From positions 9,325,849 through 9,389,848 of the forward strand of contig JASSKH010000005.1 in NCBI GenBank assembly GCA_031763025.1: 64,000 bases of DNA, written 5' to 3'. The stretch's first letter is position 1; each line of letters begins with the position of its first letter. The DNA comes from Macrocystis pyrifera. Its lineage: Eukaryota > Sar > Phaeophyceae > Laminariales > Laminariaceae. Both the position numbers and the translations under genes were made by a program. A model generated the notes under the pieces. The model made no database searches and was not told the DNA's origin. It saw nothing but the letters and a program-made list of their open reading frames with translations. Of the stretch, positions 15,801-62,094 are shown piece by piece.

Positions 15801-15805
15801 TACCT

Positions 15806-17862
15806 GGTACCAGGTATTAAATAAAAGGGAAGTAGTCAAAGGGGGGTATACCCCAGGTCTATTTAGCCACATGGGGGTATAGGAAAAACACGCCCGCGGG
15901 AGGCGTTCCCACGTGCCCCAACCGACTCCGAATTCAAGTCTAACGCGCTGGCAAGGTGCCCGCAGCCCACGCCCGCCTTCTTTTCTTTTTCGGGCACGTT
16001 GTTGGGGCTAACAGCACCGCCGCGCAGGAGGGGTCAGAAGAATTCCCCCTTTTGATCAAATGTTGCGGGGGTATTCCCCCGCAACTCTACTAAATTTATG
16101 TAGTACCCCCGCGAGACCACCCTCTACCCCCTTTGACCGAGTCACTACCCCGCGATGACTACTTATCACAGCCCCAGAAACAGGTATGAACACTTGTACG
16201 CGTCACCCTTTACAACAGCCCGAACAGCCCAAGGGCGGAATATCCAGCAGTTGCGTCCATCGAAATTTGAGGAAAAACACACGGGGCATGACATGCAAAA
16301 TCAAGCCTTTATATCATACATAAACATACCGATGAAAGCGGATGAAAATTAAAAAGGGGGGGATGGGAGGGGTCGTGTGTACCAGGTCTATAATGAGACA
16401 CTAGCCGACGGCAACAGACCAGAAATCAAGCAACGCAGCGAGCTCGCACATCCGGCAACAGCGAATAGCACACGGGTATCCAGCGGTTTCGACATGTGAA
16501 CGTAAGCAGTTCATCTCCTCCGCAACATGTCTAGCCAAATCGGTATGGATAACGACATCTGGAAGTGCGTCCGCTCCGGTGTCAATCCGCGTAATGCGGA
16601 TCGCCAAAGGGGATAGTTTTTCGACCGCCGACAACTTCAGGGTGGCGTTCGAAAGAAACTTGATGGCTGAAAGGCGGCGGAGCAAAGCAGAAAATAGTGT
16701 TTCCGGCGGTAAGGCCAAACTATACCGATGCACTGGAACCAAGTTTAGTTACCCGTATGTTACCTTTGCTGGCATTACCTGTAATTAGTTACCTTCGTGT
16801 TACCGCTCCCCATAAATAACCACCACATACTTTACAGCACGTATGTGTCGTAGTCAACTCACAAGAACTTTTCTCCCGAAAAAAATGAAAAAACGTACCT
16901 GGTAACACACAATACAAAAGCGAGAAAGGAAGACCAACGACAACCACAACTACGGAAAGGAACAGCGTCCCTTCCTCTTTCCCCCGAACACATGCATACA
17001 TGGGCAGGAAGAGAAACGACAAAAGCTCCAACACATGAGGGAAGACAAGGGGAAAACAGGCGGACATAAAACAAACTAAAGCAACAACAGAGACCGCAAA
17101 CAATGCAGACCAAACCAAATGGAATTATAAAGATAGCAAGCGGCGGCGCCAGTACTCTCCTACAAAAAGCGTTGCCACCATGCCAGAAATTCCCTCCTGT
17201 GTCTTTTCGTTATTATTCATATTGCGCTAAGCGCAGCCAGTGTCTCATTATAGACGTGGTACACACGACCCCTCCCATCATCACCCTTTTATTCTTCCGC
17301 TTTCATCTGTATGCTTACGTATGATATTAAGATTTGATTTTGCATGTCATTTGTTGCCCCGTTTGTTTTTGCTTAATTTTTTATTGAGACTACTCGCAAT
17401 TGCTGGATATTCCGCCCTTAGGCTATTTGGGCTGTTGTATAGGGTGACGCGTACAAGTGTTCATACATGTTTCTGGGGCTGTGATAAGTAGTCATCGCGG
17501 GGAAGTGACTCGGTCAAAGGGGGGTAAGATGGTGGTCACGCGGGGGTGCTACATAAATTTAGTAGAGTTGCGGGGGAAGAATACCCCCCGCAACATTTGA
17601 TCCAACGGGGGAATTATTTTAACCCCTCCTGCGCGACGGTGCCGTTAGCCCCAACAACGTGCCCGAAAAAAAAAAAGGCGGGCGGGCGTGCTCGGCATGG
17701 GCTGCGGGCACCTTGCCAGCGCGTTAGACTTGAATTCAGAGCCGGTTGGGGCACGTAGGAACGCCTCCCGCGGGCGTGTTTTGCCTATACCCCAATATGG
17801 CTAAATAGACCGGGGGTATACCCCCCTTTGACTAATTCCCTTTTATTTAATACCTGGTACCT
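15806..17862. mobile_element. 2.06-kb element with about 600-bp terminal inverted repeats
   Basis: The left arm (15,806 to about 16,401) and right arm (about 17,231-17,862) are inverted copies. Shared words include ATTAAATAAAAGGGA, CAAAGGGGGGTATACCCC, ACGCCCGCGGGAGGCGTTCC, CGGGCACGTTGTTGGGGCTA, AACTCTACTAAATTTATGTA and ATAATGAGACACT. The unique centre of about 830 bp has two short frames (16,742-16,401 minus and 17,118-16,789 minus) unlike known transposases, so it looks non-autonomous. The outermost bases overlap copies of TACCWGGTA, and no clear target duplication could be fixed. Confidence 0.85.
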
Positions 17863-17879
17863 GGTACCTGGTATTAATA

Positions 17880-20220
17880 GTATTACCTATCGGAAACTAC
17901 TGCTGTATATACGAACAAAAAGTGTACCACGTACGTACATATCAGTACGCATTTTAGTGAACAAATGGATCGTATGGGTTCCAGCATCACATCACTAAAA
18001 AAAAACATATAATTATATATATGTACTTGGTTTTACGACGCCATACTAAACGCCATACAAAAACAAGTAAGCAAGCAAGTTGCTTCACGAAGCACCCAGG
18101 GCAACAACCAAAAACAAAAAACGAATACGTACGACGCACGTCCTATTAATAGTAGGCAGCACGCAACCAAGCAACCCTCCACCCTTGCTCCACCCTGTTA
18201 TTTCATTTATTTACCACTTACCGACACCAGGCTACACAGCCAACAGAAAACAGCGAGAAGATCGTTATTTCATATTTTCATCACCACTTCTAGTATTGAT
18301 ATTATTAATGGTATTGAAGAGTCTCTTCGGTGATGCAATACGTCTTGCGTCGCATCATTCGTACATCGCATCATAGAATGTTTCAGAATAGTTGCATTCA
18401 GCTGGCCTAGCAAGACGAGCAGCAGGATGTGTTCAGGGGTGTGGAGTGTGGGGAGTGTAAAGTGTGGAGAAGATGTGGAAGAACTGCTGTTCTGGGGCTG
18501 TTCCTTGCCATACCTCGCAAATAAGAAATAAGGGAGGGTGCCATCCGGCCGCCAGTGAAACCAGCAAGGGAAATACCTGGTACAGATAACTGGGTGTTAC
18601 TGCAGATACTCTGTACTGTGTGTGTGTGTTCTTCACATTAAACCGTTCTTCTACTCGTCGACATCCAGCAAGCCCAGTGGGTACCAGGGTATCTGGTAAT
18701 GATTCTATATAATATACACCGCAGCCAGGTGCAGCAGCAGCAGTAACGCCTCGGCTGATACTTCGTATAATATTTTCCCGTGATTTTTTATCACTACTCA
18801 CTCGTAGTTATAGCCGTCCACCTCGTACCGTTTTTCTTCCGATCGCACACCGTTGAGCTGTGCTCGGCGACTTTTACGTATCCTGTATCAGGACCAACAA
18901 AGTAGTACGTCTTTCGGCTACATAAATACCCATCCTGCATCGCTGTTGCCGGCGGTGAGGAACAGCTTGCAGGGAAACGCACCTGCTCCTAGTTGACTTG
19001 AGACTCCAGGCAGGTGCACTCGCAGAGTCCTTCTCCTCTCTCTTGAATAAACGGCCTTCCACACGCACGAACAACGAAGACCACGAAGACTCGCACGGCC
19101 GTGACTCCCCAGAAAGGAGATATCACACGTCCCACCAACGCCAGAACGAACACGACAACTTTGTGCAGGGCGGGTAAGGCGCGACTAGACCGCGTGTGTA
19201 GTATAGGAACACGGTCCCCGCAATACCGTTGTCATCGCCTCGCGCCTCGCTCGCGCAAGGTAAAACGATTTTACGTACTTGTTCGTGCAAAATCACGACA
19301 ACTTGCAGCAACAACAGCAGCAGAAGTTGCAGCAGGAAGACACCGCAACAAGACACCTGGCAAGGTACGCATATATATATACATGCTGGCTCGAATCCAC
19401 AGGGTCTCAGGCATCACCCAAGCACAGCGTGGTGCCGGATGCCGTGGGCTCGGGCCTCCGACGTGATGCCTTTCCAGCCATGCATGATTTTGGGAGACGA
19501 TGCGGGATTCGGACATTCGGTCGGACGGACTGTCAGCTACAGCTGACTGTTTCACCGTTTCACCAGCGGACTGGATTTTGGATAATGAGCCGCAAAGATA
19601 CGAAAACAACGCTGGTTGGTTTCCGGTTGGTTCCGATGGTTGTTGTTCCTTTTCCTTCTTCTTTCGGCCTCGGGCTCGGGAACGGCTACATAAGACAGAT
19701 CATTATACAGCACTATTATTGAGCTAAATTCAAAACTCACAAATCATGCACATCCTACAGATCATCACGTGGAAACTTGTACAGCTCACACACAGATCGT
19801 ACCAGATATATCAGGGTGTAGACTATACCTGGTATAGAATGTGCTAAAATCCGGGCGCATGCATCCTGTGTAGGTCGCTACGACGAATACTGCTTTTATT
19901 TCTTGCTGCTGAAACTTGAACAAATTTTTAATTTACAGATCCTTCAGATCCTGTAGACAAGCCCGTGAAAACGCGTAAGGGGTACAGTAGATGATGACGC
20001 ACATCTATGAACATGTTGGTGCGTGCTCTGTGCAGAGTTTGTTTTGTATTGATAGTTTTTCCGGCATGATGTGGTACTTGTCTTGCGGGAGCTGCTTGCT
20101 GTGATTTGGCCGCGATACCATCCAACGCCGCTCTTTGTGCGGGCTGCAGGGATGTCGGTGCTGGGTACAACAATAGCAGCAGTACGTAGTTTTTTACACG
20201 CTCCTCTTCATTATCATCGA
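17880..20220. other. No gene recognised
   Basis: Frames near 19,100-19,600 are open on both strands (up to 147 residues) in a region of mixed composition. None has a recognisable motif or convincing splice sites. Confidence 0.4.
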
Positions 20221-20830: not shown

Positions 20831-21290
20831 GATGAGTTACGCTTGAAAAAGTGATTAACAAAAAAAAAGAAAAAAGAAAACGATATATAGACTGTTGTTT
20901 CTGTCTCTTCTTATCTCCGTGATGGCGACATGATCAAATAGAAGTATAGGTCAGATCAGATGGTGGGGGGGCTCAAGGGTGCAGGCAAAGGTATACCAGA
21001 AAACACATCCCGTCGGACGGATTTATACGCTGATTTTCTCGGCAACGGGGAGAACAATCCAAATAAAAGCAGAGCGGTGTGACTATGGGGAACTATTTCG
21101 ACGAGATCTAGCCAAAGCAACCATTTTCGTAGTGTACGTGCCCGCTTGTACTTTTTGGGAAAAAATCGACTAAGGAATTCACCCCAAGGGGTGCTATCTT
21201 GCCTGGTACCAGGTATGTATTCGGAACACTAGACAATACGCGCGTAATATGAAATGAAGCACACCATCTCAGTTTCGTTCACGATCAGCC

Positions 21291-21437: not shown

Positions 21438-22230
21438 ATTCGAAATTCGCACCTTAGTTAGCGTGGGCACTGCGCACAGCAACGACCGGACAAGCGAAAC
21501 AAGTGCGCTAAAATGCTCAGAAACATTGTACGTACGTACCTGGTATACGACATGATGCGGAAAATGCAATCAATTTTGGGACTTTTGAACGCACTTGAGT
21601 TGGTAGCTTTTCCTGAAATCCTGTCATGAATAAATACTTGATCGGCATTCTCTCGCGCAAGCGCATACTCGTAGTGTGCGCGCGGAGGGAGGGAGCTACG
21701 GCGCCTCCCCCAAATGAAGACAAGCGAGTTTCGCGGCACTCGGCCACGGGTATAAAGGTTTCAGCTCTTGCGGAGAGCGGATATTTGTTCAGCATTATTT
21801 TACATCGATCGATCAGTCGATGGCGGAGCGACGCCTCGAAAACCCGTGCGGCCATTCCGGTCGACGAACGGCGGTCGCCAGGCGCTTACTGTAAAAAAAC
21901 CTCTTGACCACGTGCACGAATACAGATCTGCAGGGTGCGATCTGAGCCAACGTGTCAACGACTATATACGACTCCGACGATACGGGCCGATCCCGCCCCC
22001 ACAGAATCGCACCCCCGAAGAAGAAACGCTACGAAAACCAACGTGCAGAACCGGCGTATTACACAGAAAACAGGGTGTGCAAACAACAAAGCACACATTT
22101 CTCGACGAACTCAATCGGACTGAAAGAACAACGCCGCCGCCGCTCCACCTCCTACCTCGTACCTCCCCCCCACGCTCCCACTTTCGGCCCGCAAAGAAAA
22201 AAAACGTTTCTCGGGATCAGGAACGAAAAA

Positions 22231-25200
22231 TCAGACGTCAGTCGGGAAAAAAACTCGTCGCGTGTTTTCGAGTGCTCGTGTAGCAAGCTCCCCTGGCTCC
22301 TCGCCTCTCGCGGCTGCCACCACTTCTAGCACCTGGACAAACGCGCGCATATCGGTGTGGGGTCGTGTTGCTTAGTGGTGTTGGTTCCAGAATAGGCCAG
22401 CGGCGGACAGCGATGCGAGTGGCGAAATGACGTCGGATGGCCCCCCAAGCAAAACACAAAAATAACCGAGTGTCCTTTGTCATCGTACAGCAGTGGCATT
22501 GATAGTAGTGGCTTCTTGCGCACGTCTTACTACTTTACTGTCTTGCTGTACAAGTCAATTTAGACGACCGTATAAGCTCGTTTGTTCGCCGGGAGGCGCT
22601 CCAAATGGCGGAGGGGATAACTAGCAACAGCAAAGCTAGTTTAGCTGTCGCTAGGAACTCGAGCAGCAGGATATTTGTAATTTGTCGTCAACTTGTGTGC
22701 GTTGGATCCTGGTCGGTACGTCGGTCGCTTCAGCCATCTCCGAAGGGAGTCATTTTTTTTTGGCGCCAGCATATAGAAACACGCCTTTGCTCGTAATAAA
22801 AACAACAGCAACAACAAGACGGCACACGCCCGCACCTGTACCCTTACCCTTGCCCTGACCCAAGCCCATATTCACAGTAACAACTGACGCAGACATTCAG
22901 TAGCTCTACCACGCTACGCCAGCGAGGCACAGCACGCGACAATGTTTCACAACAACGCTCGCGCGAATGCGCAGCCCGGCCCGGCTCTGCCCAGTCTTGC
23001 CCTGCCTAGCCTTGAACAGGCCAGCCTCATGTGTACCTGAACAATGTGGCAAGGCTCTTGCCGCCCTTTAACGCAGAAACCGGCTTCGAACTTGGCGCTC
23101 TTGCGGAACGGAAAAGACGTTTTCACAGACGCGGAGCCTGCGTGGGATGGTCGGATCTCACACCAAGGCGCGTCGGTCTCCAGCATCAGCCTGTCGCTGG
23201 GGATCGAGCGGAGCACCTGTTCTCGTGCGGTAACGTCAACAGAGCGACAGCAACAGCAACAGCAGCAGATTAGGTAGCAACAGCAACGGAAACGACAACA
23301 CCAACACCACCAGCAACAAAAACATCGACAACAACATAGACAGGAACACTGCTAATGACAGCTAAAGCGACGACGGCAACAACACGAACAACAACAGATG
23401 TACACAAGGCGGGGTGGGGGGGGATCGGGGCGGGGTGCGGAGGAGGAAGTCGCGATGAACCAGGCGGTCGAAATTGGACCGCGTCATCGAGCGCCTTGGT
23501 GGATTCTTCGAGGTAAGGCCATGAAGAACAGATACCCTCTAGATAAGGGAATTTCGCAGAAGAGTTAGATTTAGGACAAGGAAAGGGAAAATAAAAAGGA
23601 AACGAAGGGCATGACGCAGACCTCTACAACAGTACACAACACGCAGAGCCCAGGGGTACAAACAAGGCACGGGTCTAATACGACACCGGTGGCGTATAAA
23701 AGGAGTTACGCCACCGGTGCCGGATATACACTTGTTACCAGGCGAGGAATATACCAGGTATTGAACAGCCATAACGCAATACCTGGTACATAATATTGAG
23801 ATCACATTTGGTCCACGCCATTCTCGACAACGGTGACGATATCACTATTACTTTCCGCAGTAGAGCCGTCCGTGGCTGCTCGCGTACCAAGGGGGGCAGA
23901 CAGAAACAAAACAAACTGTTGGCGGGGTCATTCACCAAGCCGCCTACAGGAACCAAACGAGCACGAACACGAACGAGATCGATAATGGATACCGCAAAAC
24001 GTATCCCACTCTAATTCCAAGAAGTTTGTCCCCAAAAGCGTGGGTGCGGTTTTTGAAGGGGATATAACGAATACTGACTTGCGAACACTGTCAAGTGTCT
24101 GCGGCTGCCTGCGGGGTAAGGGTTCGAGACTGGACCTTCGACGCTTGCCACGCAGCTTGCGGCTGGCAGGGCCGAGGGGTGTCACTCGTACCTCAAGGTT
24201 CTCCTCCGTTTTGAGCGAGCAGCCGTTGATGCCAATGTACAGCCCTGGAGGGTGGAGATGACAACAGCGCGCGTGCGCCCAGGGCAGAAAAGCAGCACAA
24301 GTCGAAGAAGAGAAGGAGATGAAAAAAAGGAGGTATTTTCAACATCAAGGCGGGCTATCTCAAGCTCTCAGCGCTGTGTTGGTGTATTCGGCCCAGTTGA
24401 CTGTCATGGCGTCAGGAATCGTGATCAAAAGAGCTATAAGTAATGCTGCCAGGCGAGATACACTCGGAAGACCAGCAAAGGAGAAATAACACCGGCTCGG
24501 TCAAGGCACCCACTGAACCAGCGACAGCGACAACGACGGTGTTTGTGGCAGTGACAAGCGGCGGCGACGTCTTCGATCGAACACCGGGGTGTTGTTGTGG
24601 TCGCAACCACATCGACTGAATGCGAAATAGATGAGTACCTCGCAGTACATGTTTCACTCGCCAAGGAGGCAAATCTCTATCAAACAAAATTTGAGACGCA
24701 ATGGTGTGTTCGCGGTCGCCCCGCTCTCTCTGTATTCCCCCATATCCACATCTCTGCATGATTTATGTATCTACGTCTATTTATCTCTCTCGTACATCCC
24801 CCTTTGCCTGCCCCCTCTCTCTCCCCCCCCCCCCCCCTTGCCCTCTCCCATCCCATACAATATACCTGGTATATAGGTTGGGTTGGCGTCGGTTGATGAC
24901 GACGTTGTAGAACACGCCTCTCACTGCGCCAGCTAGACAGCCAGGATACTGTTTGTTTTCGTTCTTTTTGGCGGCTACCGCAGCTGGCGGTCAAGATAGA
25001 TCATTATTGTGCGGGGAGAACCTCTACTCCGCACAAGGGGGACGATCGTATCACGTAGCGCGTATATGGTGAGGCACCCACGAGGCATTTACAAAGGAAA
25101 CCCATTGCTGTCTCTGGAAGTGGCCACGCCAGAAATTAAATCAATCCATTGATGCTGTCATGCATGTGCAAGAAAATCCGCCTCAAAAGCGGTTCTTAGT

Positions 25201-28200
25201 AGGATGCAGCTCACCCTTCATGCGACTCGCCCAACGCCTCACGGCGCTTCGCGCTTGGTGCAAGCAACGTATGCCTGGTCGGTGAAAACCCGACGTGCTC
25301 CGTCCCGGCAGTGTAGGGATGCGAGGGTCTATGGCCATACGACTACGGCCATGCATGACAATGAATACACCTCCCCCCCCCCCCCCCCCCCCCCCTCTCC
25401 CTCTCCTATCTCTTCTCTCTATCGCGCGCGCAACCGCTGCCACTACACCATACGACTCAAAACACGGCAACAACCACTGCCTAAACGCAACACGCTCGCA
25501 CCCATGGACACGAGCTCCTCCGCCTCCTCTTTGGTCCCGGTGAAGGAGTGCACCACTCCGCCCGAAAATCGATCCCGATTCCGTCGAACCATGTCGGAGA
25601 AGTGCTCCCTGCAGGCCCGCGAGTGAAAGAACACGGGCAGGCCGCTCCGCTCGGCCAGCTCGAACTGCAGCTCGAACCCCTTCGCCTGTTGCGTCCATCG
25701 ATCCATCGATTCATCCATTTTATCCATCCATCCAGCGACCAGTCCAGCCATCCATCCATAAATCAATAAATCCACCCCCACAACCCCACCCGCCACCCCA
25801 ACATTCCGCATCCACCGCACATAGGTCGGAACGCCAACAACGCCCCCGTGTCCCGTGTCGAGCAAACACAACGCACAAACAGACGCAAACAGGCGCGAGC
25901 ATCGCGAAAAGCAAGGTATTATTTGTAAGTATGTCGCCGAAACGCGAATGCAACTGTGGCGAAGGATTTCAATGTTGACGCTGGACGATGAGCGTCAGAG
26001 ATGCCCCGAATCGTGTGCCATGCGTCATGTGTTGTGCTGTGTGTTGTCGTTTTTCAACATACGCGAAAGATAAGGCGCTTGGAAATAGATTGGCTGCAAT
26101 ATATTCACGAACAACAGTACGTAGTAGAACATTTTACGAAAAAGTCAGACAAACCGAGAAAGCGAAGACGTGTCTACTTCCTTCTGTGTCTCTCTGGCTC
26201 TCTTGCTCGAGAGGCGGAGAAATTGCACGTACGTGAAAGGCTCTTCACATTGGCACGTAAATTCAACACGGTTGCAAGTATAGCAGAAGTTGTTGTAGCT
26301 ATGTCTGGCCCTCATGGTACCAAATCGGATCAGGGTGCCAGGTGGGCCTTCGGCGGCTCCTGCGGAGGGCCGACTATGTTTCTGCATCACTAAATGGGGG
26401 AGTGACAAACGAGATGAATCCACTGCGGGGTCAACGTACCGAACGGGATAAGGGTGCCAAGTGGTATAAACATTACGCCTTGCTACGTGGGATTTCTCCG
26501 CTGATGCTCTCATCCTCTCTAATGTGTCTGACTTCTCGCTCGGACACACGATATGGTAAAGTGCCCATCGCTCTGCCCCTACCACAAACGGCACGCTTGA
26601 TTTACGCAACACCTACCTACCTACCCCACGCGACGGACCTGCTCTTCCTTGCCGCAGAAGTGCAAGCGGTCGTAGTCCAGGCCGCACTCTCCCACGGCAA
26701 CAACCTGGCGTTCCATGTTCGTGCACGGCATACGCCAATCGGGTAGGGTAGGATAGGGTATGCGAGGGGCGTGGGAGAGGCGTCTACGGGCATCCCTGAA
26801 GGGCTTCGGCGGGTCGAGCCACATGCAGGATGTGCACATTCCCGAAATGAGCACCTGATGAATTATTCGACGCTCACACCGATGTCGGGCACACGATGCG
26901 GACAGAAAACTGGTCCCCGAGGGACTTGGGCAAGCACAACTGGTTTGCCGGTCTTCATGCTTTTGCAATGCGCACAATGTCCGTCACTGCAATATGTTAC
27001 TGCAACATTCTGTCAATAGACTACACATATGTTACATGTTAATACTTGCAGTAAAATCCTACTAACACTAAAATAGCTGCTACAACTACTGTTATAACTA
27101 CTATTAATACCACCACTACCACACTGTCACACTGTACCTGGTATGTACTTTGATACTACGATATACTGCTCCAACATTATGATACTGATGTAAGGAACAG
27201 GTATTGCTCCAATAATTATACTGCCTCAAGTAATATACACAATACTGACAGCAGCAGTTGTTGTAACCTGCTACTATCTGTTACTGACATACATACGGCC
27301 GCAGCATACTTGTTGAAATAGTTTTGACAGCACCAACCTTGCCGAGAGCTTTGCCTTCTTCCAAGACAGCAGCCAGAGCCGCCACATGCGCCTCCGGATC
27401 ACCACCACCGCCACCACCACCGCCACCGCTGTCACCGCCACCGCCACCGCCAAAAAACTCCAAGGAGCGCGTGGGGTGCACGCCGACCGTACTATAGAGG
27501 TTCGGGTGAGACTTGGCTAGCTCTAGGGCCCCCCTTGCCTCTTCCAGCGTGCCAGCCGTGACGACCATCTAACCGATGTACGAGTGGATACGCGGTGGGG
27601 TGGGTGTTTGCAGTGCGGACAGACAGAAAGATGGGCGAACATATTGTTAATACTGTCGCCGTCATCTGTTGAAGGATAAAGAGTAAACAGGATGCCGCTG
27701 AGAGATCGTCAAAAAACAGGTTCCGCCAACAGCTGACGAGATGCCTATTGAAAAGACTGAAATCCCAGTGACAAGCGACCCATCAAGCGCAAGGGGCAAA
27801 GGGGAGGTGTAACATACCGTAAATACGAGTACCTGGAACCTGGAACATACGTACTGTTGTACACCAGGTACCAGGTATTTACACGTGCTGTACGGCCGCA
27901 ACTTGCATTATTTATTGGGATGTTTGTTTCGTCCTTGTCCTTATTTTCACTTGCTAGGCCATGATCTGGCCTTGCGTTGCCTCTGCTTGCGGGACCGCGT
28001 GATTGAAAGTCAGGATTGTGGGAACTACATACGTATGATACTGGCGATATCAAACACTGAGGTTTCCAAGCACAGCAGTGCCAGGTATTCACTCTTTGGC
28101 TATGGAGTTTGGCTATCAAAATTAGCTTTTAGGCTCAAGCTTAACTTTCAAGCTTAGCTTCCAAGCATAGGTTGTCGCGTCTACGCTTGGAGCCAAGCTT

Positions 28201-29311
28201 AGCTGCCAAGCTTAGCTTCCAGGCTCAAAGCTTACGAGCTTCCAAGTTCCGAGTTCAAGGTTCGCTTCCAAGGTTGGTTTTCAAGCTTAGCTGCCAAGCT
28301 TATTACAGCTTCCAACTCTATACCAGGTATACTCGTAGCTTACATGTCAAGCTTCAACCTAGTTTCCAACCAAACCTGTGACAATACTATCATTGCAGCC
28401 TCCAAGCTGAAGACCTCGTAGCTTCCAAGCAAACATACGCTGCTCTACATAGATTCCAACCCTACAATTTCAAGCCTACTGTTTACAAAAGTAAATAGCT
28501 TCCAACCTTAGCTTCCAAGCCTATTCATAGCTTCCAACCGGGTGCCAGGTAGCTTCCAAGCCTATAGCTATTAGTAGTAGCCCCCAAAGCTTAGCTTCGC
28601 TTTCAAGCTTACGATACCACGTAGATATGCCTTGGCTTGCGAGACGAGTATCATGTATCATGTACCTGGTTCCACCCGTCTACCAAACCAGCGCTGTGTC
28701 GTTGTGGCTGAGAGTAACATACCGGTATCTATCATGAGGCCCGCCTTCCACTTTGTGCAACTTCAAGTTTGCGTCAGCAGACAGGAGAGCCCCGGAGCAA
28801 TCTGTCCGTGGGTGAGAGGCAGGTAAATCGGCAATATGATCGTACTCGCTCACAGATATTTAGTTGTTGGTCGATGCTTTTGCCGCTGCCGCTGCGGCTG
28901 CCGCTGCTTTTCTGGTTGGTATCGTCGTTGGTATGATCACCATTCGACATTCATTCAACATTCATAAGCAGTCACGCCAGCTATACACAAATTCAAGATA
29001 AAAGTGTACCCTAAAACAGCAAGAAGCTAAGTCACCTTCTCCACCCCCGCGGCGGCAGCCCTGTCGAGAACCGCATCGAGGTCGGGCTCGTGCTTCTGCG
29101 AGCCGCCGTTGTACCTTCCCTGGAAACAGTCGTCCAGGAGATTGGCACCGATGTCGATGAACCTCATGCCTGTTCCCTGGCCTGTGGACATACTGACAAC
29201 CGACAGAGCTGTTACTCGTCTGCGACTGAACGATCGGAGGTGAGACGTTCCCGCCTGGAAAGAAGGCTTCCCTGCAGACAAGGCTAGGATGGTGAAAGCA
29301 GCATTGAACAT
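22231..29311 (-). CDS. TATDN1: TatD-family metal-dependent DNase, 7 exons, 363 aa
   Basis: Exons on the minus strand are 29311-29036, 27568-27338, 26704-26639, 25685-25502, 24244-24192, 23216-23037 and 22332-22231, all GT-AG and in frame to TGA. The product follows the eukaryotic TATDN1 order: FIDIGANLLDDCFQG, then GVHPTRS, GECGLDYD, VFFHSRAC, VVHSFTG, LYIGINGCSLKT, LETDAPWCE, HAGS and HIVQVLEVVA. The expected metal ligands are present: Glu175, His212, His237 and Asp285. In this family two metal ions support 3'-5' exonuclease or endonuclease action in DNA repair or apoptotic DNA degradation. A hydrophobic, Arg/Ser-rich extension of about 48 residues precedes the FID motif and could be an organelle-targeting peptide, with Met41 or Met49 as alternative cytosolic starts. 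Exon 2 carries a Gly-rich insert coded by CCACCG repeats, next to the GVHP loop. The gene is head-to-head with P0. Confidence 0.96.
24819..24838. repeat. Poly-C tract in a TatD intron
   Basis: A near-pure C run (G on the coding strand). It is typical of the homopolymers in this region and of uncertain exact length. Confidence 0.85.
25370..25396. repeat. Poly-C tract in a TatD intron
   Basis: A C run followed by CTCTCCCTCTCC about 100 bp beyond the exon 4 donor. On the coding strand it is a G run. Confidence 0.85.
28110..28610. repeat. AGCTTCCAAGC minisatellite in TatD intron 1
   Basis: Dozens of degenerate AAGCTTAGCTTCCAAGC-type words with variable 3-20 bp spacers fill about 500 bp, with many HindIII (AAGCTT) sites. 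The repeat stops cleanly at both sides. It is non-coding. Confidence 0.85.
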
Positions 29312-30345
29312 TTTGGTTTGCAGCAGAGCTATCTACGAGAACACCAGTTCAAGGAGTTCGTATGTTCTGTTTGGGATGTTTTGTGCGGGGTTGCGTAAAG
29401 AGGGTCTATGGACGCGTGTGTGGTTCACAAACAGTGCTGAGCGTGGTTAAAAATAGTTTGGGACAGGAGCCCATTCTGCCACCTCAACCCCCTCGTGCAA
29501 GGTGAGCCTGCGTCTCCTGGAGAGCTTGCCGTGGTCGTCTGCTTCGGCCTCTGCGAAATCTCCCTCCATTCGTTTTTATTTCCTTTTTGTTAGCCGTGAA
29601 TCTGTGACCTGCGACCACCCGAACCACCTTGCACTTCGTGCAAGGCGGACACTCTGTTGCACACGTGGGATGCTGCTTGCGGTCGTTCAAGGAGACATGT
29701 GTTGTTACTTCAGCAATTCCCTGGGGTTGGGCAGGCCCATGACTCGCGTCCGCCTTGAAAAGCATGAAACTACTCTGAGAATGCTCGCGTTTTGAACCAC
29801 GCATTTTGCGATTTTTTGTTGTGTTTTGACAGACGGATTCACAGACAACCAAGAAGCGCACTTGCTTCGGTCCAGTGTTCAATGGTATCGTACACAGCGT
29901 GCAGTAAGTTTCGCCGGCAAAGGCATGGATTGGATTCAGTAGTACAGAACAGTAGGGCATCAGTGGTTGTCGGCGTGCATCTACGTATCGACCATCTCGC
30001 TTGCTGGCGGTTCCTGACGACAGGCACAAGCTCATCACTCGAATTAAAAAGAGTTCCACTTTTGGTGGTACAGATACTGCTTGATACCAAGTCGTAGCTA
30101 CGTTAGAGTACCGCACAGCCAGGGGCGGCAGTTCGCACCCACAGCCTACGGGCTGCATCCACCCGCACCCTCTGCCACCCCGTAGTGGCTGGAGTCAAAT
30201 GACTGGCATGGACGTCGGTTTCCGCCGTACCAGGTACAGATTTGACTTCGACATGAACGCATGATGCATGCCCGCTCACGTCCTCACATCGACTGAATCC
30301 TACCGCCGTTGTTTCGCGCTCTTGTTTGTGCCGCCGCTGCGCAAA
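29312..30345. promoter_or_regulatory. Divergent intergenic region between TatD and P0
   Basis: This is 1,034 bp between two divergently oriented start codons, so promoters for both genes must lie here. A strong donor-like word (GTGCAAG|gtgagcct) at 29,501 on the plus strand could end a non-coding first exon of P0. A minus frame over 29,484-30,158 has no family resemblance and is not called. Confidence 0.55.
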
Positions 30346-38182: not shown

Positions 38183-41100
38183 TCACCCGCCCTCCAGGAC
38201 GTAGGTCATAACGCCCGCTCCGCGTACACCCTTCAGCCGTTTCAGATTTCGCAGCGTCGCTATGAGCGCCTTGGTGGTCATCTGTTGAGACAAGGGGGGT
38301 GGGAGGGCGGGTTTCTGGTGTGACGCCCGACTCAGTTATGACACTCGTACCTGATATACAGAAGATTTGGGGGGGGGGGGGGCTCCCACCAGCGCGTGCC
38401 CCTGATATTTCAGCACCGTTCCATAATATATATGTATTGTGTGGGCGAAAAATCTTCAGCTTGTGACAACACAGTGGGCACCCGGTGCCAAGACGTTGCT
38501 AAGAAACGTCAATTTGGTGTCCAGGCCCAATGTCTTACTTTTTCCGACATAAATCTAACTCCATTGTATGCCTGGTAGGATCCAGAGTTGGTCCCACTTT
38601 TGAGCTGTGTTTCTTAACCCGATGTTCTTACTGTTCGTGCCGATCCGAGCCTATTTTTCTCAACATCATGTTTCTTAACTGCGGGCGCCTACTGTAATCG
38701 ACTCACCGTCGAGGGGTTCCTAAGGATTTAGTTAATATGCCTACCCTGGTACTTCGCTGCAAAAAAAGTCCAACTTTTTGTCTCGAGTTACCTGGTATCG
38801 TAGTACCGGCATGAGACGGTATCGGCCATTCAGAACTTGACGTAAAAAACAGCATTGATGATAGAAGTGAGAACAATCCGGAATATTCAGCGCGTGCTAT
38901 TCGGAACGGGCAGCCACATTCGGTCGCAGGCAGGAGCAAAACGACAGGCTCGCCTCTCCGAGAAAGGGTGAGTGGTTAAGGCACTATCATACCAACTAAG
39001 ATGAGATAAGATAGATGTCGGATGTCCTTCCAAATCGGGCGTAAAAGCTAAAATTGTTGATGCGGCGTGGCTTCGGTCACGTCGAGGTTCCCGTCAAATT
39101 ACCCAACAGCATCACACGCCGGTCAGTTTTAGGCAGACGCCAAGCAGGCCCCACCACGCCGTGGCCGTGGAGCTGCCCGAGGAGGCCTGGCCTCGTTCAC
39201 AACCGTAAAACTTTATTCCATAATATCTTCAAGCCGTTTGTCCTTCAGAACGGGGTGCAGTTCTACAGGGGAAATAATGACGACAGCGACCACGAAAAAC
39301 AGCGTCAAGTGGCTAATGGCCGTCCGCCCGCCCACTAAAAAAAAAGTGACGCTGACAAAACGAAGTCCAACTTATAGTCGACGCTCACGCTTGTTCCATG
39401 CACACGTTTACTCGCAATGCTATCCAGTAGAGTTGTATCCCCGCGAATACTCGCGGCCACCGAGTACTCGCCAAATCTGGGGAAAAACAAACCCGGGTAC
39501 ACGCGAGTATTTTGGGCAATATTTTAGGCGAGTACTCGTCTAGAGGAGGACCCGGGTTGACGAGTTCCCGGGTATTCGGAATCTTGTTCGAGCTTGTCAG
39601 GTCCTCAAGGCTACGGAGGATCTTATCCACCCCTCATCCCCGGGTTTTAGGGTGGCTCTAATGTCTAGATATGTCATCAGAATATGATATCCATACTCCA
39701 TAAACAGAACGCGAAGTACATACAGCTATTTTATACATCATTTACTTGTTTGTTCGTGCGTTCAAATCAGACGGATCAGACACGATGCTTAAAGATAGAG
39801 AGCGAAATTTACGCGAGTGATCCTAGTCGCGCGGCATGCCGTGTCACTTAGCCAGGCTTCTCAAGCCAGCCGTGATTCGAGTGAAAACGATACTCATCGT
39901 GCTCGTTGGCATAGTACTAATTGATGATGTTGAGCTACGGTCTATATCCAGTCGACAAACAGGGTGGAACCTAATGAAGGAGGAACGTTCCGAAAACTTT
40001 CTACTTAGTATACCGGCCAAAAATCAAGCATGCGAAAACAGAGGGAAAAACCAGCGGAACAGCCTTTTAAACAAGAAAACGAAGCAAAGGAAAAAACAGA
40101 TTGGAGATAGTACCACAAAAAAAAAGCAACTGCTGTGGCTCGATGGTGCGCTTGGCGCAAGGTGGAAGCGCATGAGACGACTTGTAACGGAAAAAAGAAA
40201 AATCCGTGTGAAAAGCATGCCCGGCGAACGGCAAACCACGCAAACGCATTGAATGAGTTTCTTGCATAATTTAGACGATATCCTTGGTACTGCACAGGGG
40301 ACGTGATTAAGGGGATGAAAACTTGTCATCTCCGGGGTCAAACAGTGAGTCCCCGTGTACTCGTTACACCCCGAGTACTCAGGCCCCAAATACTTGCGAT
40401 TATGAAAGTACTACTCGTACCCGTGCGGCGAGTATTGGCAAAGAGAGCTTGTACTCGCGAGCACCCGGGTTATTTATAGTAGGGGTACAACTCTACAGGT
40501 GCGCTGGGTGAAACATGACGCCGCCAACAACACCCAACGATGTTATATACTTTCATTGTGACCACTGCTGCGTGGGCATCGTACCGTACCACACAAGAAA
40601 CAGTACGGTACGGTAAATATACCGTAAATTGCGTTGAGTTCGCGCAGGTGTGCTATCGTTCTTCAGCGCTCGATTTGCCCAGAACGCGAAGGTTAACTAT
40701 ACCGAACGACAACAAGGTGCTTTCGGGAAGATCTGACCGAGAGCCTGCCGAAAAAAAAGTGTTCGATTTTATTAATAGCAACCCTTGCCGTTGTCGAGAA
40801 AACGACCGCTTAAAAACGACCGCGCCCCTGCGTGAAATCAACGCTCTTTACGGTGATACCCGAATGCTCGTACTTGCCATGATTCCGGTATGCTGACAAA
40901 CAAGCGCGTGAACAAGAAAAAGGAGCAAGAAATTCCGAAACAAATCCAAGCAAACCAACTGCCCACAGGTGGGTGGCCGCACCTCCCCCTTCTTGAAGGT
41001 TTGCAGCGCTCGTAGGTCGGCCTCCGTCATGAACGGTCCCCCTCCGTGACCCGGTACCTCCTGCTGTTGCAGCTGCTCCAGCAACCGGCGCTGCTTCTCC

Positions 41101-49040: not shown

Positions 49041-51633
49041 GGAGAGGGGGGGGAGGGGGGGAGGGGGAGGAGGGGAAGGACGAAAAGGAGAAAGTCCTAG
49101 CGCAGTTTGCGAGGGCGTGGAGTTGAGTCGTAAAGTACCCTCGAGCGCCGCCGGGACCGCCGGAGGACGAGCTGCTAGCCGAGGCAACAAGGTCGATTCT
49201 CCCGGCCGTGCCGTCCAGGAGGGGGACACAGCGGTCACGCCCAAGACGCTGGCGGCTCCTAGAAATCGCGGTCACGGTACCGGCACCGCGCGATCGTGTG
49301 GACCCGGCCGAGTTACCCTTTCGACCAGAAAACGAGCCAGGGTTTCGGGGGACGCGTTGTCGCGGGCAGGCATTACTCCTGGGAACGGTTCGGGCGGGGG
49401 GGGGGGGTGGGGGGGGGGAGCGGAGACCTCGGCAAAGTGGGCGGCAGCCGTGGCGGTCGCGGTGGTGGTGGAGGGGGGGAGGGACAAAAGTCCCAGCCAG
49501 GACGGGGCGCGGCCATTCGAGTGAGGTGGTGCTGCTCATGAGCTCATTGGAATCGAAGTCGGTGGCGCTCGCGAAGTCGATGGGTAGGAGGTGAGACGAG
49601 ATGGAGGGAAGGGAGGAGGGGAGGGGCGTGGGAACGAGGAGAGGGGAGGAAGGAACGAAGGAAGGGGAGCGTTGGCGGGAGTAGGAGGGTAGTTGGAGGC
49701 GGTGGCGTTCGTGAGCCCCCATCTCCCTCCTGGCTTCGCAGGCCGCGAGGTCGTTTCGTGCTTGCGCTGTTCCGCACAACGCGTGTGCGCGGCGACGATG
49801 GACCCGCTTGCGTTCCCATTCGCTCGCCCCACGCATGGCGTCGTCGCGGTGCTTCGCCGAGCCAACTTGCAACGCGATAAGGGTGCTCGCCAACTTGGTG
49901 TACGTGTTTTCACGGCCCTACTGTCATCCCTCCTTCCTCATGTGTTCTACCCCCCCCCCCCCCCCCCCCTCGAGCATGATCCAAATTTGTGTCTTTCGTC
50001 TGCGGGCTGTTGTACTTGTACCGTGTATTCCGCCTTCTGACTGGCCCCTTGCACTTTGTTGAAGAACAACACAGTTCACAAAATTGAGCAGCCTAAGCCA
50101 AGAAGTGGACTGCCTCGCGCGCGCTTGCGATTGCCCCCCTGCAATGCATCTTCTACTTTATAATCTAGCATATCTCGCTACTTTTCTTTGTGTCTTCAGT
50201 CTCTTCCTCTCTACTTCTCCCCCCTTCCTTCCCTCCCTCCCTCCCTCCCTCCCTCCCTCTGCACACCGCCAAGGACCCTTAAATATGCAACTACTCTCCC
50301 ACCGCTCTCCCCCCCCCACCGCTCCCCTCCCTCTACCCGCGTCGCGCCCCACACTCCCGTAACCTCCTCCCCCCTCTCCAAATCCCCCTTTCTCTCCCCC
50401 ATCTCCCCCTTCCCTAACCTCCCCCATCCTCCCTCCGCCCCCCCCCGGCCTGGGTCCTTCTCTCTCCAAAGTTACGGCTGGAGGCTGGAGGCTGCGTATA
50501 CCGAAGAGGTGACGCACGCGGTGTGTGGGGCCGACCCCGAAAGCAACAAGGCCAACATCCGCAGCGCCAAGTACCTGCGAGCGGTGGCCGGGGGCAAGTG
50601 GGTAGTGAACGAGGCGTGGCTGCGGGAATGCAAGAAGCGCAGAGGCCGCGCGGAAGAGGAGATGTTCGAGATAGCCGGGGACAGGAAGAGCACCGTCCCC
50701 TCCGCGCCCAGGAGGTCGAGGCTGGCGCACGCTGAATCGGTGAGGATTGGCGACCGACCGATCGACTGCAAGCGCCGCAAGTGCCCTGTGCAGTTTATGA
50801 ATACGTGTATTTTTGTGTTTTGAAGCCAGTGAAGTTGTGCTAGTTGCTGATGTTGCAATTCATAAATGTGTTGCAGTTCTGTTTTTTTTTTCCGCTGCTA
50901 CGATGTAAACTAGGGCTGTTTTATAGGTTTGTGTGTAGGGCTTGTGTGTTTATTGCGCGTACCAGGTAGGCTGCATGTAGGTTATATGTAGGTTATGAGT
51001 AGGCGGTGATAGCAACAACAACAACAACAACAACAAAAAACCTTGAACAAAAAAATGTCAAAACTAAAAAACAAAATGTTCGGCGATGCGCAGGACCGAC
51101 CGGGGCTTTTCCAGGGCATCGCCTTCCACTTCCGGGGGGAGTTCGGGGTGAAGTCGCCCCCTCTGTCGGAGCTCACCCCCATGCTCCTCGCCAACGGAGG
51201 CACCATCGCAGGGACTGTCGAGGCTCTCTTCTCGCGACCGAAAGGAGGTGAAAGGAACGCTGGCAGCGGTGGTGGAAGTGAAGGTGGTAGCGGTGGTAGT
51301 AGTGGCGGTGGCATTGGCGGAAGCTGGAAGCCGAAGTGCGTTGTGATATTCCAACCTTCTTCTGCCTCGCCCGAGGAGGACATTCGAATGCTGGAGAAGG
51401 ATTTGGAAACCTTTTCTACAGCTGGGATGCCGCCTGGTGTGGAGGGTGGGGTTGGGGTGAGGGGTGGCAGTAGCAGCTGCGATGGTGGTGGTGGTGGCGG
51501 TGGTGGTGGAGGAAACGGTGCAGAAGACGGGGACGCCACGGTACATGTGGTTAATCCGCTGTGGTTGGTGGACAGCGTGGGGTCTTTCAGGGTTCTGAAG
51601 CCGACCGTGTTGCACCAGATACAACAATCTTGA
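44417..51633 (+). CDS. BRCA1/BARD1-like RING plus tandem-BRCT protein, about 1,640 aa
   Basis: Exons are 44417-44550, 45174-45391, 45828-49590, 50472-50739 and 51094-51633. Splice phases agree at every junction. The N-terminal C3HC4 RING uses Cys40, Cys43, Cys55, His57, Cys60, Cys63, Cys74 and Cys77. BRCT1 starts at the end of exon 3 (VVLLMSSLESKSVALAKSMG) and runs through EEVTHAV and GGKWVVNEAWLREC. BRCT2 is DRPGLFQGIAFHF to VNPLWLVDSV, with Gly-rich inserts. RING plus tandem BRCT is the BRCA1/BARD1 architecture (ubiquitin ligase and phosphopeptide or nucleosome reader in homologous recombination). Which of the two this is cannot be told, as no ankyrin repeats are seen. The middle has two copies of a GD-V-PG-NK-GG module (about 46,325-46,500 and 48,280-48,446) and acidic and proline-rich stretches. 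Exon 3 shows three apparent frame changes near 46,775, 47,800 and 49,040-49,520. These are either small unrecognised introns or indels in repeats and the 37-G tract. Confidence 0.85.
45138..45156 (+). repeat. Poly-C tract serving as polypyrimidine tract
   Basis: A C run lies 18 bases before the exon 2 acceptor of the BRCA1-like gene (cgctcgcag|T). Confidence 0.85.
45775..45817 (+). repeat. TACCC microsatellite before the exon 3 acceptor
   Basis: About eight TACCC-type units end 10 bases before the acceptor tgtgcag of BRCA1-like exon 3 and appear to supply its pyrimidine tract. Confidence 0.8.
49003..49039 (+). repeat. 37-base poly-G tract inside BRCA1-like exon 3
   Basis: It codes for poly-Gly if in frame. 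Its length decides the reading frame downstream, and one frame change of exon 3 lies between it and 49,520. Confidence 0.9.
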
Positions 51634-54600
51634 CGGATTTTGAAATTCCGTCGGTAGGTGTAGGTATGGATTACCAGGGTATACCGATACGTATTACTTT
51701 CTGTTGAAACGTTGAAATTGGTCTATATATATAGCCAGGATATATTCCTTTTGCCATGGTAGTTTCCGTGCATATGGGTGCTTTTCGCACAGGTCAATGT
51801 TTGAATAACCTTGAGTTTGTTGACGTTACCCTCAATGCCTGATACTCGGGCCCCCCAGACTGACTGTGGCTAGGTGTGTTGTTCCGCTTGCCTGTAGTAT
51901 CTAGACTCCTGCTCTTGGATGACCACGGCAAGAGATTTGACAGTGAGCATTTGTGAGATCGTAATCGGCATCATCGTCCTCGTTATCGACTCCCTTTCTT
52001 TACTACCAGGGTACGAGGATATTCTTCTGGTAGGGCAGTATATACTACTATACTAGGGTGGTATATACTTGCAGTGTATAGAAGGAAGTACAACATGTTT
52101 TTGTTATATTTCTTTTGTACGTACCAGGGTATGTATCATACCCTTCCTTGTGCAGTGGAATGGGATTTGTGCCGCACAAGATGGTATTTTTCCCTTGGCC
52201 TTCTTTGGTATGTACGCGTGGCGAAACCTTGGCGGTTCGTCCCGGTAATGAATTCTGTACGGAAATTCCTTGTACTTCCAGACGTACGCGGTGTTTTTTT
52301 CTGTTGTTCGTGTGCATCGCGAGGCTCTGTGTCTGCCGTTGCGATGATTGTGACTGTTGCTACATTACATATTTTCGGTGCAAGTATGTGCGCAGTCGAG
52401 AGATATTGACATGCATGCAGTATTCTTGCTGTCCACCGTGCGTGGACCATTATCTTGCCCTTTCTTCTTCCCCCCCCCCCCCCCCACACACCTTTTTTGT
52501 TTTCTTCATTTTCTATCTCGAACGTTTTGCGGTGTCGAGCATTTGCACACTGCGTGCATGATCGATCAAGTGCACATGAGAGGGAAGCAAGACGTAACGA
52601 ATGTTTCGCTTCACATGCGTTTCGTTTTTTTATTGTAATTGACAAGACACCTAGGCTGTGAGATGAAGAGTTTGGTCGAAATTCACCTTTGCTAGCTGCG
52701 TGTGATGCTTCGATCGCGTGTGCGTAGGGTGTATGGGCTCGTGAAGGGTATATGTTGGTGACCCTCTGGGTGATACCGGTAGATAGTACCGAGGTCAACA
52801 GGAAGATTTTACAAAGGCGGCCAGACTTGTTTATTTTGCGCACGGATACTCTAACCCAGACTGTTGCCTTGCATCGCACCTGGTAAGTGTTCAGGTTGTC
52901 CTGTGTCAATCGAATACGTGTGAGATGCTCGTTTAGTCTTCAAAACCTGACAGTAAGTGTACGCTACGAGCTCGCAAGCTATTTGGTACGCACTTCTGGT
53001 AGGGATGCCATATATACTCCTTGTATGTGTTGCAGGTCAGCAGATCTAGCCCAGACCTGATATCTGATGCTCTCGGGTTTGTGCTGCTCAAGTTTTGTAG
53101 TATGCAATTGGTGCAGATTGTGCGTGCTCCATGCATGTGACATCGGCTCTTCCTGACATACCTGGTACGATAAACTCTCCGTAATATATTCACCCGCAAT
53201 GAACGGCAGAACGATGCCCTTCGGGTGATTCGCTGGCTTTCTGCATCATTTTTAATACGGAGTGCACTTGATCATTTCGCACTCCGAATCTCACCCTCAG
53301 ACACTACCTGGAGGGTACCTGCATGAGGGCTGGAATCAATAGCCTGGTCCTGCCAGTTCTACCACGAAAAAATGAAAGCGCAAGCAATGAGAAAGACACA
53401 TCACACTCGACCCTGTTTTCTATCTACATCCTGGGAATGTCTCGTGGAGTTTGTTGATATTTCCGGCTCTTGATTGCAGTAAATAGCACCTACCTGTCAA
53501 TATACCGAACTATAAAAACATTGGGAGTCAAAAAAAAACGTTATTATATATAGGGTGATCGCGAAGAATTTGGTTGGGTTGGGTTTCTTGCTTTCTGTTT
53601 CCTATCTAGTAGCAATGCCAACCGACGAAAAATTAATTGCTGTGGGAAAATGACCAAAACGACGTTTGTAACCTCTACGCAGTAAGCATTCTTGGGTTGG
53701 ACATCTGTGTGGGTTGCATAGCAAACGGAGCACTGGCTAGCGCCTTCGGGTTTACCTGTGTAACGAATCAGCTTCTGTTTCAAATATTCATATAAGCCAA
53801 TCAAACTGGATTATCGCAAACAACCCTATTGTAAAATACATTTTTAAACCTGCGAGTACCGGTAGAGATCCAGGATGAAACACAAAATCGCTCTGTACTT
53901 GAGACAAAAAATACAAAAATACCAATACAAGTTTCTCTCGTCCGAATTGACCCAAAGAAATTCGAAGCGTATCGCAAAATCATGCCCGGGTTGTTCTGAA
54001 TCTTCAAGGAGCCGACGTAAATAAACGATTACTACTAAAGCGATCGGTTCTTTGTCAACCACCCACTTTTCTCGGGTCCCTCTGGCTACCACGTGGGGCC
54101 GTCTCTGAGCACTTCGTAGGATCATATAAATTAAAAAGAACCCTTCAATTGCGACATTTGTTCATAGATTTACCGACAATACGCCAGCTGTGAGGTTTCC
54201 CAACCCGACTATTGCGGGTCTATACTGTGCTCAGCCTCGCAAGCGTGTCGTTGTACAACGGTTTCACTTCACTCACAAACGTCTTGTTCTATGTACAAAC
54301 GTGTGCTATTGACACAGCCACGATGCCGCCGCGGCCTTCGCGACGTGTACGTGTCATAACTATGTTTTTGCCGGTCGAACCCCCCCGCAAACATGCCGAA
54401 TACCATGAAGATGCAAGAACATGCGAAAAATTGCCCCGACTTATCTACGAAACGATCAAGTCTAGCAGAAAAGCATATTGGCCAACCTGCTGTACACAAT
54501 AATCTACCAATCATATCCAAACGCCGTTCATTAAGGCCATCGGTCATTACAAATTACCAGGTAACTTCGCCGAAACACCTACCGGTACATGTTTTTTTGT

Positions 54601-57820: not shown

Positions 57821-58891
57821 CGGCAGTCACGAAGGTCGGGAGACCCCCCCAGCAGCGAACACGTTCGGGGGAGGAGACCGCCCCTTCCGGATCGCCAGGA
57901 AGCGATGGTGACAGCGACAGCGACGGGATGGGGAGCAGGGACGGAGATGGGGATTGGAGATGGGGATGGCCGTGTCCGCGGCGGTCGGGGGAAGCGATCA
58001 CACCGTGCCCTGTACGCCTGGCGGTTGTCGATCGGTACCTGTTTATATGTCAGCGCATGGTTTTAAAAGAAAAGCGCAACAAATGTTTTTGCGCGGCACA
58101 GCACGGCACAGCACGGCATGGCGAGGTGCAGGCACACCACAATGGCGTGGCGGTGGGGGGTGGCTAAGTGGTCATTGGAACCCCCAGGAGAGAAGTGAGG
58201 GGACGGTGGGGTAGGGCAGGAGGCGAGGGGGGGGGGGGGGCGGGGGGGGGGGAGACAAGGAAGCTAGGATAGCTCTCGTTATGAACCTCGTCGTGAAAAC
58301 ATATTCCGCAGGAAAGAGCAAGATAAGTTAGCGGAACTCCTGACATCGACTTAGGATAGATCTTCAACGGGGGGATTGTAACTTTACACGAATGTTTAAC
58401 TTACAACTTCGTCTTACGAGAAGAATCATGGTTCGCCGCTCGCAAATCGTGATCCACAGCTAAAAAAAAAAAAGTGATAATCGAAAGCGGCGAAGCAGCG
58501 TTTCTAGCTCGTTTTGGGTTCGGGTTAGGGCCAGGGTTAGGGTTAGGAGTTGGGTTGGGTCGACGCCCGTGCCGTGATCTCAACATCGGAAGTGTGCTTC
58601 TTAGCCGGCACAATCGTGAACAACCAATAGCCCGACCCCTGGAAGATCTACCCTAAGACGTTGTTACATGGGCTCTACTTTTGCTGCTGTTATTCATCGC
58701 CTTGCCAGGTACAGGGTTCGGAGCGCGTGGACGCACGGAGGAGTAAATTGAAAGGAGGGCGAGAGGATCAAAGCGGTCACCAACTGGCGCTGCCGCAGGC
58801 TACCGGCTGCATGTTTCCGCTGAAAAGGGAGGTTTTATCGTTCGGTCCGAGGCGTTTACCACTGGGGATACCTGGTATGTATGTTACGATA
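57821..58891. other. No gene recognised upstream of the RING-H2 gene
   Basis: The likely promoter of the minus-strand RING-H2 gene lies in the left part. Poly-G blocks occur at about 58,228-58,251, and a telomere-like patch at 58,515-58,560. Confidence 0.45.
58515..58560 (+). repeat. Interstitial telomere-like repeat
   Basis: Degenerate TTAGGG-type units (GGGTTAGGGCCAGGGTTAGG and variants) cover about 45 bp. It is too short and degenerate to be a chromosome end. Confidence 0.65.
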
Positions 58892-60198: not shown

Positions 60199-60315
60199 TA
60201 TTACGGGGGACCATAGTAAATAGGACCAAATATCGTTACTAAAAATAAGCAAATATATAGGTTTTTGTGTGTACCTAAGGTCCTATTTAACTATTTAGTA
60301 TGGCCCCCCGTAATA
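60199..60315. mobile_element. TA-targeting MITE, copy 4, inside the 5' repeat
   Basis: Ends are TTACGGGGGACCATAGTAAA and the inverse, flanked by TA. The 3' repeat reads GGCAAACCTAACAAGGG at 61,748-61,764. The 5' repeat reads GGCAAAAC, TA, element, TA, ACAAGGG. This is a paralogous empty site that proves the TA duplication. Confidence 0.9.
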
Positions 60316-61050: not shown

Positions 61051-61517
61051 GGCCTCACGGTCGTCTGCCCGGAGGCCGATGCCCCACACGGGGTCAAAAG
61101 GGCTGGCTTCAGACACTTTTTTGGTGCCAGCGCTCATGGCCGGGTTCCGCGTGAATTTGGCAAACGTGTCAGCAAGGACGCGTCTTCCCGAACGCTGTCC
61201 CAGATAGCGCAGTCGAAATCATGTACGCCTCGACCGATGCATTTGTGCTCGCGTGGGTCTTGCGAGGACATAATCCGCTGCGCTGCGCCGTGGTCCTGAA
61301 AAAGGCGAGCCTTTTCAGCCATCATATACTGCTCCGCGCAGGAATATGACACATCGGCTTTTCTGACGTACCTTGCCGGCCTCTTCACCTTGCCATTCAG
61401 AGGTGTGGGTGTGGGTTTTGAGGAGCCGCTTCTCCGAATCATGCTCTAGCTCGTGGAATAGGGGTTTCCACGAATTTCCCATATTTTCTACATATACGGC
61501 TCATCAAAGTGGGCTAG

Positions 61518-61793
61518 TGATATGGTACTGCTTTGAATGAGGCTGAAAGGCCGGTAATTACCTGGGTTCAGGTATCGAGATCGTACTTGTAGTACTTGGG
61601 AGGCGTATCGTAGATGGAAAACCAGGGGTTTAGGTTTTCCCATCGAGGCACGAGCCTTGCTCTCAGTCTCCACCGTGCACGAAAGGAATTAAGCTGCTCT
61701 TCTTCTATCTCTACTCAAACTTCACACCTGGGTCCCCTGCTCAATAGGCAAACCTAACAAGGGATACAAAGTGCCCCGACCTTGAACTTAACA
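61518..61793 (+). repeat. 3' repeat of the LTR-like element (uninterrupted copy)
   Basis: It aligns with 59,699-60,352 once the two MITEs there are removed. Shared words include GAGGCACGAGCCTTGCTCTC, AGTCTCCACCGTGCACGAAA and AGGGATACAAAGTGCCCCGA. Confidence 0.8.
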
Positions 61794-62094
61794 GTTGGTT
61801 GCGCTGCGCTGCACTAACTTCTGCACATACCAGGTATCATACGAAGTACGTAACGGACTACTGTAGAACCACATAGAATCACAAGAAAGGCACACCTAGC
61901 TCAGCTCATCTCATGCAGCAGCACAGCACAGCGCAATGCAGCGCCGTGCGTTGCCGTGTTTTCTATTTCGTACATATACCAAAGTAAGTACCAGTATGTA
62001 CGTAAATACAGACACGCATGCGGCGTCCGGGTTGTTTTCCTGTAGCATGGAGCTCTTGGCTCTAGCAAGTCACCTAGTTGCACCTAATTTTTTG

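Follow-up and report, generated by a model that had tools for sequence, protein, structure and literature searches.

The window analysed here is a stretch of 64,000 nucleotides from the brown alga Macrocystis pyrifera (assembly GCA_031763025.1, contig JASSKH010000005.1, positions 9,325,849 to 9,389,848 of the forward strand), in which the nine-base palindrome TACCWGGTA (W being A or T) occurs 32 times against an expectation of 0.56 under a Markov-2 background. Among the 512 classes of palindromic 9-mers with a W or S centre (S being C or G) that were scanned in the window, it was by far the most enriched. An earlier note had listed 31 copies and claimed a strong excess over about 0.5 expected; the excess holds and all 31 starts were exact, but one copy (TACCTGGTA, 16896-16904) had been overlooked. 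Wherever the alignments were readable, the word is DNA inserted at TA, and we give a probability of roughly 0.78 to the reading that it is the excision footprint, or scar, of a TA-specific, Tc1/mariner-type cut-and-paste transposon, for which we infer the parent element, a 5-nt stagger, annealing and the transposase.

The copies begin with two overlapping words (TACCTGGTACCAGGTA, 15801-15816, starting at 15801 and 15808) and, beyond the copy at 16896, a three-word array (17851-17873, starting at 17851, 17858 and 17865). These five arrayed words flank a single 2.1-kb inverted-repeat structure, so that the description of the copies as mostly single and in unrelated contexts needs amending. This long inverted-repeat element (15808-17859) lies within a TACCAGGTATTAAATAAAA palindrome, its own ends being distinct from the words. 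Four words adjoin a one-mismatch copy: 21207-21215 (with 21200), 27869-27877 (27862), 30691-30699 (30684) and 34828-34836 (34821). The words at 23752-23760 and 23780-23788 pair as a 12-bp inverted repeat and may form a mini-element. The others stand at 18574-18582, 19826-19834, 21537-21545, 24863-24871, 27135-27143, 28321-28329, 30228-30236, 32137-32145, 32270-32278, 33212-33220, 33722-33730, 38789-38797, 41676-41684 (where a diverged repeat copy without the word, in L066, shows an 8-bp gap that is not clean), 42585-42593, 45110-45118, 50960-50968, 53159-53167, 54555-54563, 58869-58877 and 61828-61836. As had been observed, no exact word precedes 15.8 kb, though forms with one mismatch and R..Y flanks are present in that part, at 1970, 12251 and 12686; that at 12251-12259 (TGCCAGGTA) is probably a decayed scar, and carries one unit where a related copy at L058:6921 carries two. 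The S-centre form is absent from the window, and one-mismatch neighbours are mostly near background.

The claim that the word never falls in an exon stands as far as it was checked, namely for ten open reading frames (ORFs) scanned with Pfam (six matched at E up to 0.1, four without a match; no gene models were built): none of the 32 words lies inside these 8.0 kb, where about four would be expected if the words were uniformly spread. Because a 7-bp insertion would shift the reading frame, this absence agrees with the origin of the word by insertion. Parts of a minus-strand gene for a TatD-type DNase and of a gene with a BRCT domain lie at 22950-26983 and 50164-51630, a ribosomal protein P0-like gene, recognised by eye only, lies at about 33-36 kb, and GACCCG-rich tandem repeats with a 40-bp unit occupy 62126-62960.

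Nor is the excess confined to the window. In the host assembly (537,376,219 bases in 223 contigs), TACCWGGTA occurs at 121,279 places and a mirrored control word at 2,421, a 50-fold difference; the genome-wide count that had been proposed as a check thus shows nothing like a background-level frequency. In twenty 10-kb stretches whose positions were fixed beforehand (L058-L077, the preset stretches), there were 68 words and no control word; together with the window, these stretches make up the 264 kb, with 100 words, to which several of the counts below refer. With 32 words in its 64 kb, the window exceeds the genome-wide average of about 14 for that length. A text search of the literature for the letters of the words gave 217 papers, and among the 20 titles listed none deals with it.

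The form of the word is that of CCWGG with a duplicated TA, that is TA-CCWGG-TA, placed where the sequence reads R-TA-Y. In the window, 27 of 32 words have R..Y flanks, against 1240 of the 3116 TA sites; in the 264 kb the figure is 71 of 100 words. The centre is A in 50 words and T in 50. Eight pairs of neighbours are spaced exactly 7 bp apart, and the 92 runs comprise 86 single, 4 double and 2 triple words, within which W can differ between adjoining units. Genome-wide, the S-centre forms are also in excess (12,109 vs. 2,024). The donor-like CAG/GTA, said to be present on both strands, was found on one strand only of each word, and recursive splicing through it, weighed on sequence alone, was set aside. 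That the words are not copies of one long repeat was confirmed: bar further copies of the word, adjoining 8-mers are common to at most two of the 100 words. The words therefore do not form the termini of a single element family; had they done so, the original proposal would have fallen.

The most direct evidence on origin comes from repeats that are present both with and without the word. Among these are miniature inverted-repeat transposable elements (MITEs) of a family with ends TTACGGGGG, which we call the second family, the elements behind TACCWGGTA being the first; the MITE consensus, built from 26 aligned copies, measures 109 bp. In each of three MITE copies (L085:724-839, L085:1416-1530 and L084:1480-1600), a single 7-bp insertion, TACCTGG, sits at a TA of the consensus: ATAGTAAATAGGACC is the form of the site without the word, ATAGTAAATACCWGGTAGGACC its scar form, and ATAGTAAATACCWGG the MITE sequence running into the word. 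A copy in L063 has a less clean, double insertion of about 15 bp that contains the word. Insertions of at least 4 bp number seven among the 26 aligned copies, and three of them contain the word (that in L063 and two in L085); in the preset sample, one of 15 MITE copies (L063) has it. Outside the MITEs, GAGA[TACCTGG]TACAAG at L060:4818 stands against GAGATACAAG in L061 and in one L077 copy, a clean 7-bp difference, and the extra unit of L058:6921 relative to window 12251 is a further clean difference of exactly 7 bp. In the three MITE copies, and at L060 compared with L061 and the L077 copy, the gain is thus at a TA, with TA on both sides. Since, in the clean cases, a repeat copy that has the word differs by 7 bp from one that lacks it, the word was gained and was not a target present beforehand. 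Among the roles proposed for it earlier, a link to mobile elements and a spreading micro-unit were therefore on the right track, whereas a pre-existing target was not. And because first words sit inside MITEs of the second family, some first-family events are later than those MITEs. Short palindromes at very high density are familiar from HIP1 of cyanobacteria; we know of no insertion origin for HIP1, unlike TACCWGGTA with its gain of 7 bp.

A second word of the same form, TATTAATA, can be compared with elements that are still present. It occurs 15 times in the window against 0.28 expected and 67 times in the 264 kb against 1.77. One copy (17872-17879) has its outer TA in common with the three-word array of the first word; the 14 others start at 1768, 3982, 4758, 4781, 14851, 15623, 18144, 20574, 27102, 34608, 40770, 41369, 43905 and 45473. 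The window holds four second-family MITEs, at 9176-9284 (ends TTACGGGGG, TA on either side), 12542-12650, 14729-14845 and 60199-60315, with ends near TTACGGGGG...CCCCCGTAA between flanking TAs, plus one fragment near 58993; members of about 109-117 bp are frequent in the stretches fetched. A C stands on at least one flank of all 13 complete MITEs and of 57 of the 67 copies of TATTAATA, the opposite flank being mixed. At L071:4896, TATTAATA is a 6-bp gain relative to L073, L081 and one L077 copy, while the remaining copies align less cleanly. The MITE ends, TTAC...GTAA, match TATTAATA when it is read as TA-TTAA-TA, so that here the bases of the proposed footprint agree with those of an extant TA-flanked MITE. 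TATTAATA accordingly fits an excision scar of the TTACGGGGG-ended family. In L070, in L089 and at 17872 in the window, the two families have one TA in common, and the order of events cannot be read; MITE insertion into words, considered for L070 and L089, was dropped, because a word formed at a TA adjoining a MITE looks identical.

The mechanism that we propose for TACCWGGTA starts from a parent element with ends 5'-CCAGG...CCTGG-3', which would prefer R-TA-Y sites and duplicate the TA on insertion. Excision would leave about 5 nt of each end as overhangs, and CCAGG and CCTGG overhangs would pair at four of five positions, leaving a central A.A or T.T mismatch whose repair to A or T would give TA-CCWGG-TA. 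Such annealing of five-base overhangs would account at once for the palindrome, the W centre and the uniform length. Re-insertion at either TA of a scar would yield the 7-bp arrays, and a TTAA scar would arise likewise from TTAC...GTAA ends through TA overlap.

Excision of known elements offers comparisons. Tc1/mariner elements make staggered (3-nt) cuts and leave beside the TA a few terminal bases that are kept by end joining (PMC7827188), the Sleeping Beauty footprint is written with a W centre (PMC2874221), and footprints of animal Tc1/mariner-type elements measure 2-4 bp (PMC7913693) or 0-4 bp (PMC9976928). TACCWGGTA resembles these in having TA on both sides and, on the excision reading, a few remaining terminal bases; unlike with them, one product dominates here, to the point of being the top palindromic 9-mer of the window, and its parent was not found. 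Mariner-linked MITEs are also described as leaving footprints (PMC4561436). For grass Stowaway MITEs, the description gives TA-flanked relics in an intron, with 2-4 bp at the 5' TA and 1-2 bp at the 3' TA, and re-insertion at an old footprint (PMC1925063). The 5 bp of TACCWGGTA thus lie outside the animal ranges and inside the 3-6 bp of the grass description; the grass footprints vary among themselves and come from a single locus, whereas here one product recurs genome-wide. In Ectocarpus, 17 families and 11,912 copies of Tc1-Mariner elements and MITEs, mostly non-autonomous, are reported (PMC12477816), and the main text of that paper does not contain the word 'footprint'; the comparison with this alga is drawn by analogy. 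TACCWGGTA works like a Tc1/mariner-type footprint; since we found neither its parent element nor the transposase, we stop short of classing it so.

Several observations count against the excision-scar reading. The parent was not found in the stretches fetched: the 20 preset stretches hold no TA-flanked inverted repeat starting CCAGG or CCTGG, no adjoining sequence is common to the 100 words, and the two window pairs with such ends (27832-27875 and 30693-32143) are no more than chance pairing of words would give and may be such pairs. A profile search gave 39 matches to DDE_1 transposases (PF03184), whose presence counts in favour of the reading, but the word is absent from all four of the PF03184 loci that were read, and the DDE_3 profile (PF13358) had no match. 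The 2.1-kb element, whose two arms measure about 600 bp each and are 87% alike, was rejected as the parent: a search with its arm (43 matches from 40 of 213 candidates scored) gave at least 41 matches beyond the window copy, none of these 41 reaching query base 1 and five beginning at 6-9, and no TACCAGG stands at the corresponding ends in the four loci read (L080-L083). The alignments, too, are of uneven quality. L084, which was aligned separately, has other indels near its 7-bp insertion; L084 and L085 were retrieved via a pattern containing the word and so show the kind of event and not its rate; only two of the eight copies without the L060 word are clean; and a 7-bp gap in the columns of the word appears in only 3 of the 14 copies that were aligned across first words. 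A joined-flank test came out only moderately above its control (10 of 106 words vs. 22 of 1043 control sites), and its ten positives include array and self matches. Moreover, one-mismatch forms in the 264 kb are uneven, with the outer T/A often altered, the inner C seldom, and no S centre, and the 5 bp exceed the animal ranges cited above. A separate candidate for a sign of the parent, TACCWGGTATTAAATA, occurs at 256 places against none for its control and was discarded after six loci: in L084 and L085 the words lie within MITEs that supply the tail, L089 is beside a MITE, and three have nothing visible in common.

The failure to find a parent, together with the 7-bp length of the clean insertions, is what one would expect if the word were itself the whole mobile unit, a 5-bp micro-insertion with TA duplication made by a transposase or by repair and never part of a longer element. 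We consider this unlikely, since TATTAATA, a word of the same form, has a flank signature that matches extant MITEs, and excision of a longer element is therefore the simpler explanation. A further alternative, less probable still, is that RTACCWGGTAY would be the site of a dimeric DNA-binding protein and kept by selection, as its palindrome, its fixed core, the purine/pyrimidine rule at its edges and the lower variability of its inner than of its outer bases in the sample might suggest. However, the readable cases show the word arising by a 7-bp gain, even within MITEs, and not by substitution; 121,279 places are very many for regulatory use, and the overlapping 7-bp arrays also speak against it. 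Proteins may nevertheless have come to use the scars later.

Two other explanations can be all but discarded. The presence of TACCTGGTA on either side of the 2.1-kb long-inverted-repeat element would suit a target site, or a 9-bp target duplication, of a Mutator-like element, but a 7-bp gain bounded by TA at each end is not how a preferred target would come about, and the flank is present at none of the four other loci of the element (L080-L083). Equally improbable is a heptanucleotide microsatellite, (TACCWGG)n, spread by slippage. Arrays of two and three units do exist, and arrays of the unit are known in some bacterial metagenome-assembled genomes (MAGs): the three-unit array, searched in prokaryote contigs, gave 40 stretches (L010-L049) with short, separate TACCWGG tandem arrays, three MAGs accounting for 17 of these stretches. 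In the alga, by contrast, 86 of the 92 runs consist of one unit between two TAs, W may differ between neighbours, and insertions are seen at solitary TA sites. In viral contigs, the two-unit array had nine matches, none of high density, and a 20-mer resembling a terminal inverted repeat had no match in a contig search.

Some further words were considered in the same terms. The slipped-annealing product TACCAGGGTA/TACCCTGGTA, with eight copies in the window, was at first counted as support for excision and has been withdrawn, being absent from 200 kb elsewhere and including two copies of one repeat among the eight. TAGGWCCTA (28 in 200 kb) was rejected as a further scar, its repeat matches and the MITE consensus suggesting MITE sequence. 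TATSATA is more frequent than expected in the 264 kb (72 vs. 28.9, with R..Y flanks in 47 of 72), and as a third scar word is suggestive only: among 74 places, the sole match without the word was a tandem self match. The S-centre palindrome GTATSATAC, of the form TA-TSA-TA, occurs in the window at 109, 2697, 3653, 4591, 12158, 28033, 31415, 42884, 52133 and 61834, and may be the 3-nt scar left by another, third family, for which 32728-32962 is a weak candidate element. Finally, TACAGCAGTA (at 231, 3585, 15513, 17898, 32536, 32557, 59515 and 63934 in the window) is over-represented in the 264 kb (35 vs. 0.86 expected), and the scar model does not explain it.

Annotation of transposable elements counts the elements that are present; if the words are scars, they record how often elements came and left. 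A motif finder would label TACCWGGTA a regulatory element, a point on which caution is due. If the excision-scar reading is right, this single family has left about one intact scar per 4.4 kb, and the excision rate, target choice and end-joining outcome of a transposon in a eukaryote can be measured with nothing but the sequence. A mutagen that shifts reading frames by inserting 7 bp at such a scale would also bear on intron and gene evolution. It is conceivable, though we regard it as less likely than not, and slightly less likely in that the grass footprints allow 5 bp, that a TA-specific transposase whose 5-bp scar is nearly uniform, or an excision process that is programmed or hyperactive, swept the genome and left more than 100,000 scars with the element itself almost gone. 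Were this so, the genome would be a readable log of transposon jumps that are invisible to ordinary annotation of transposable elements.

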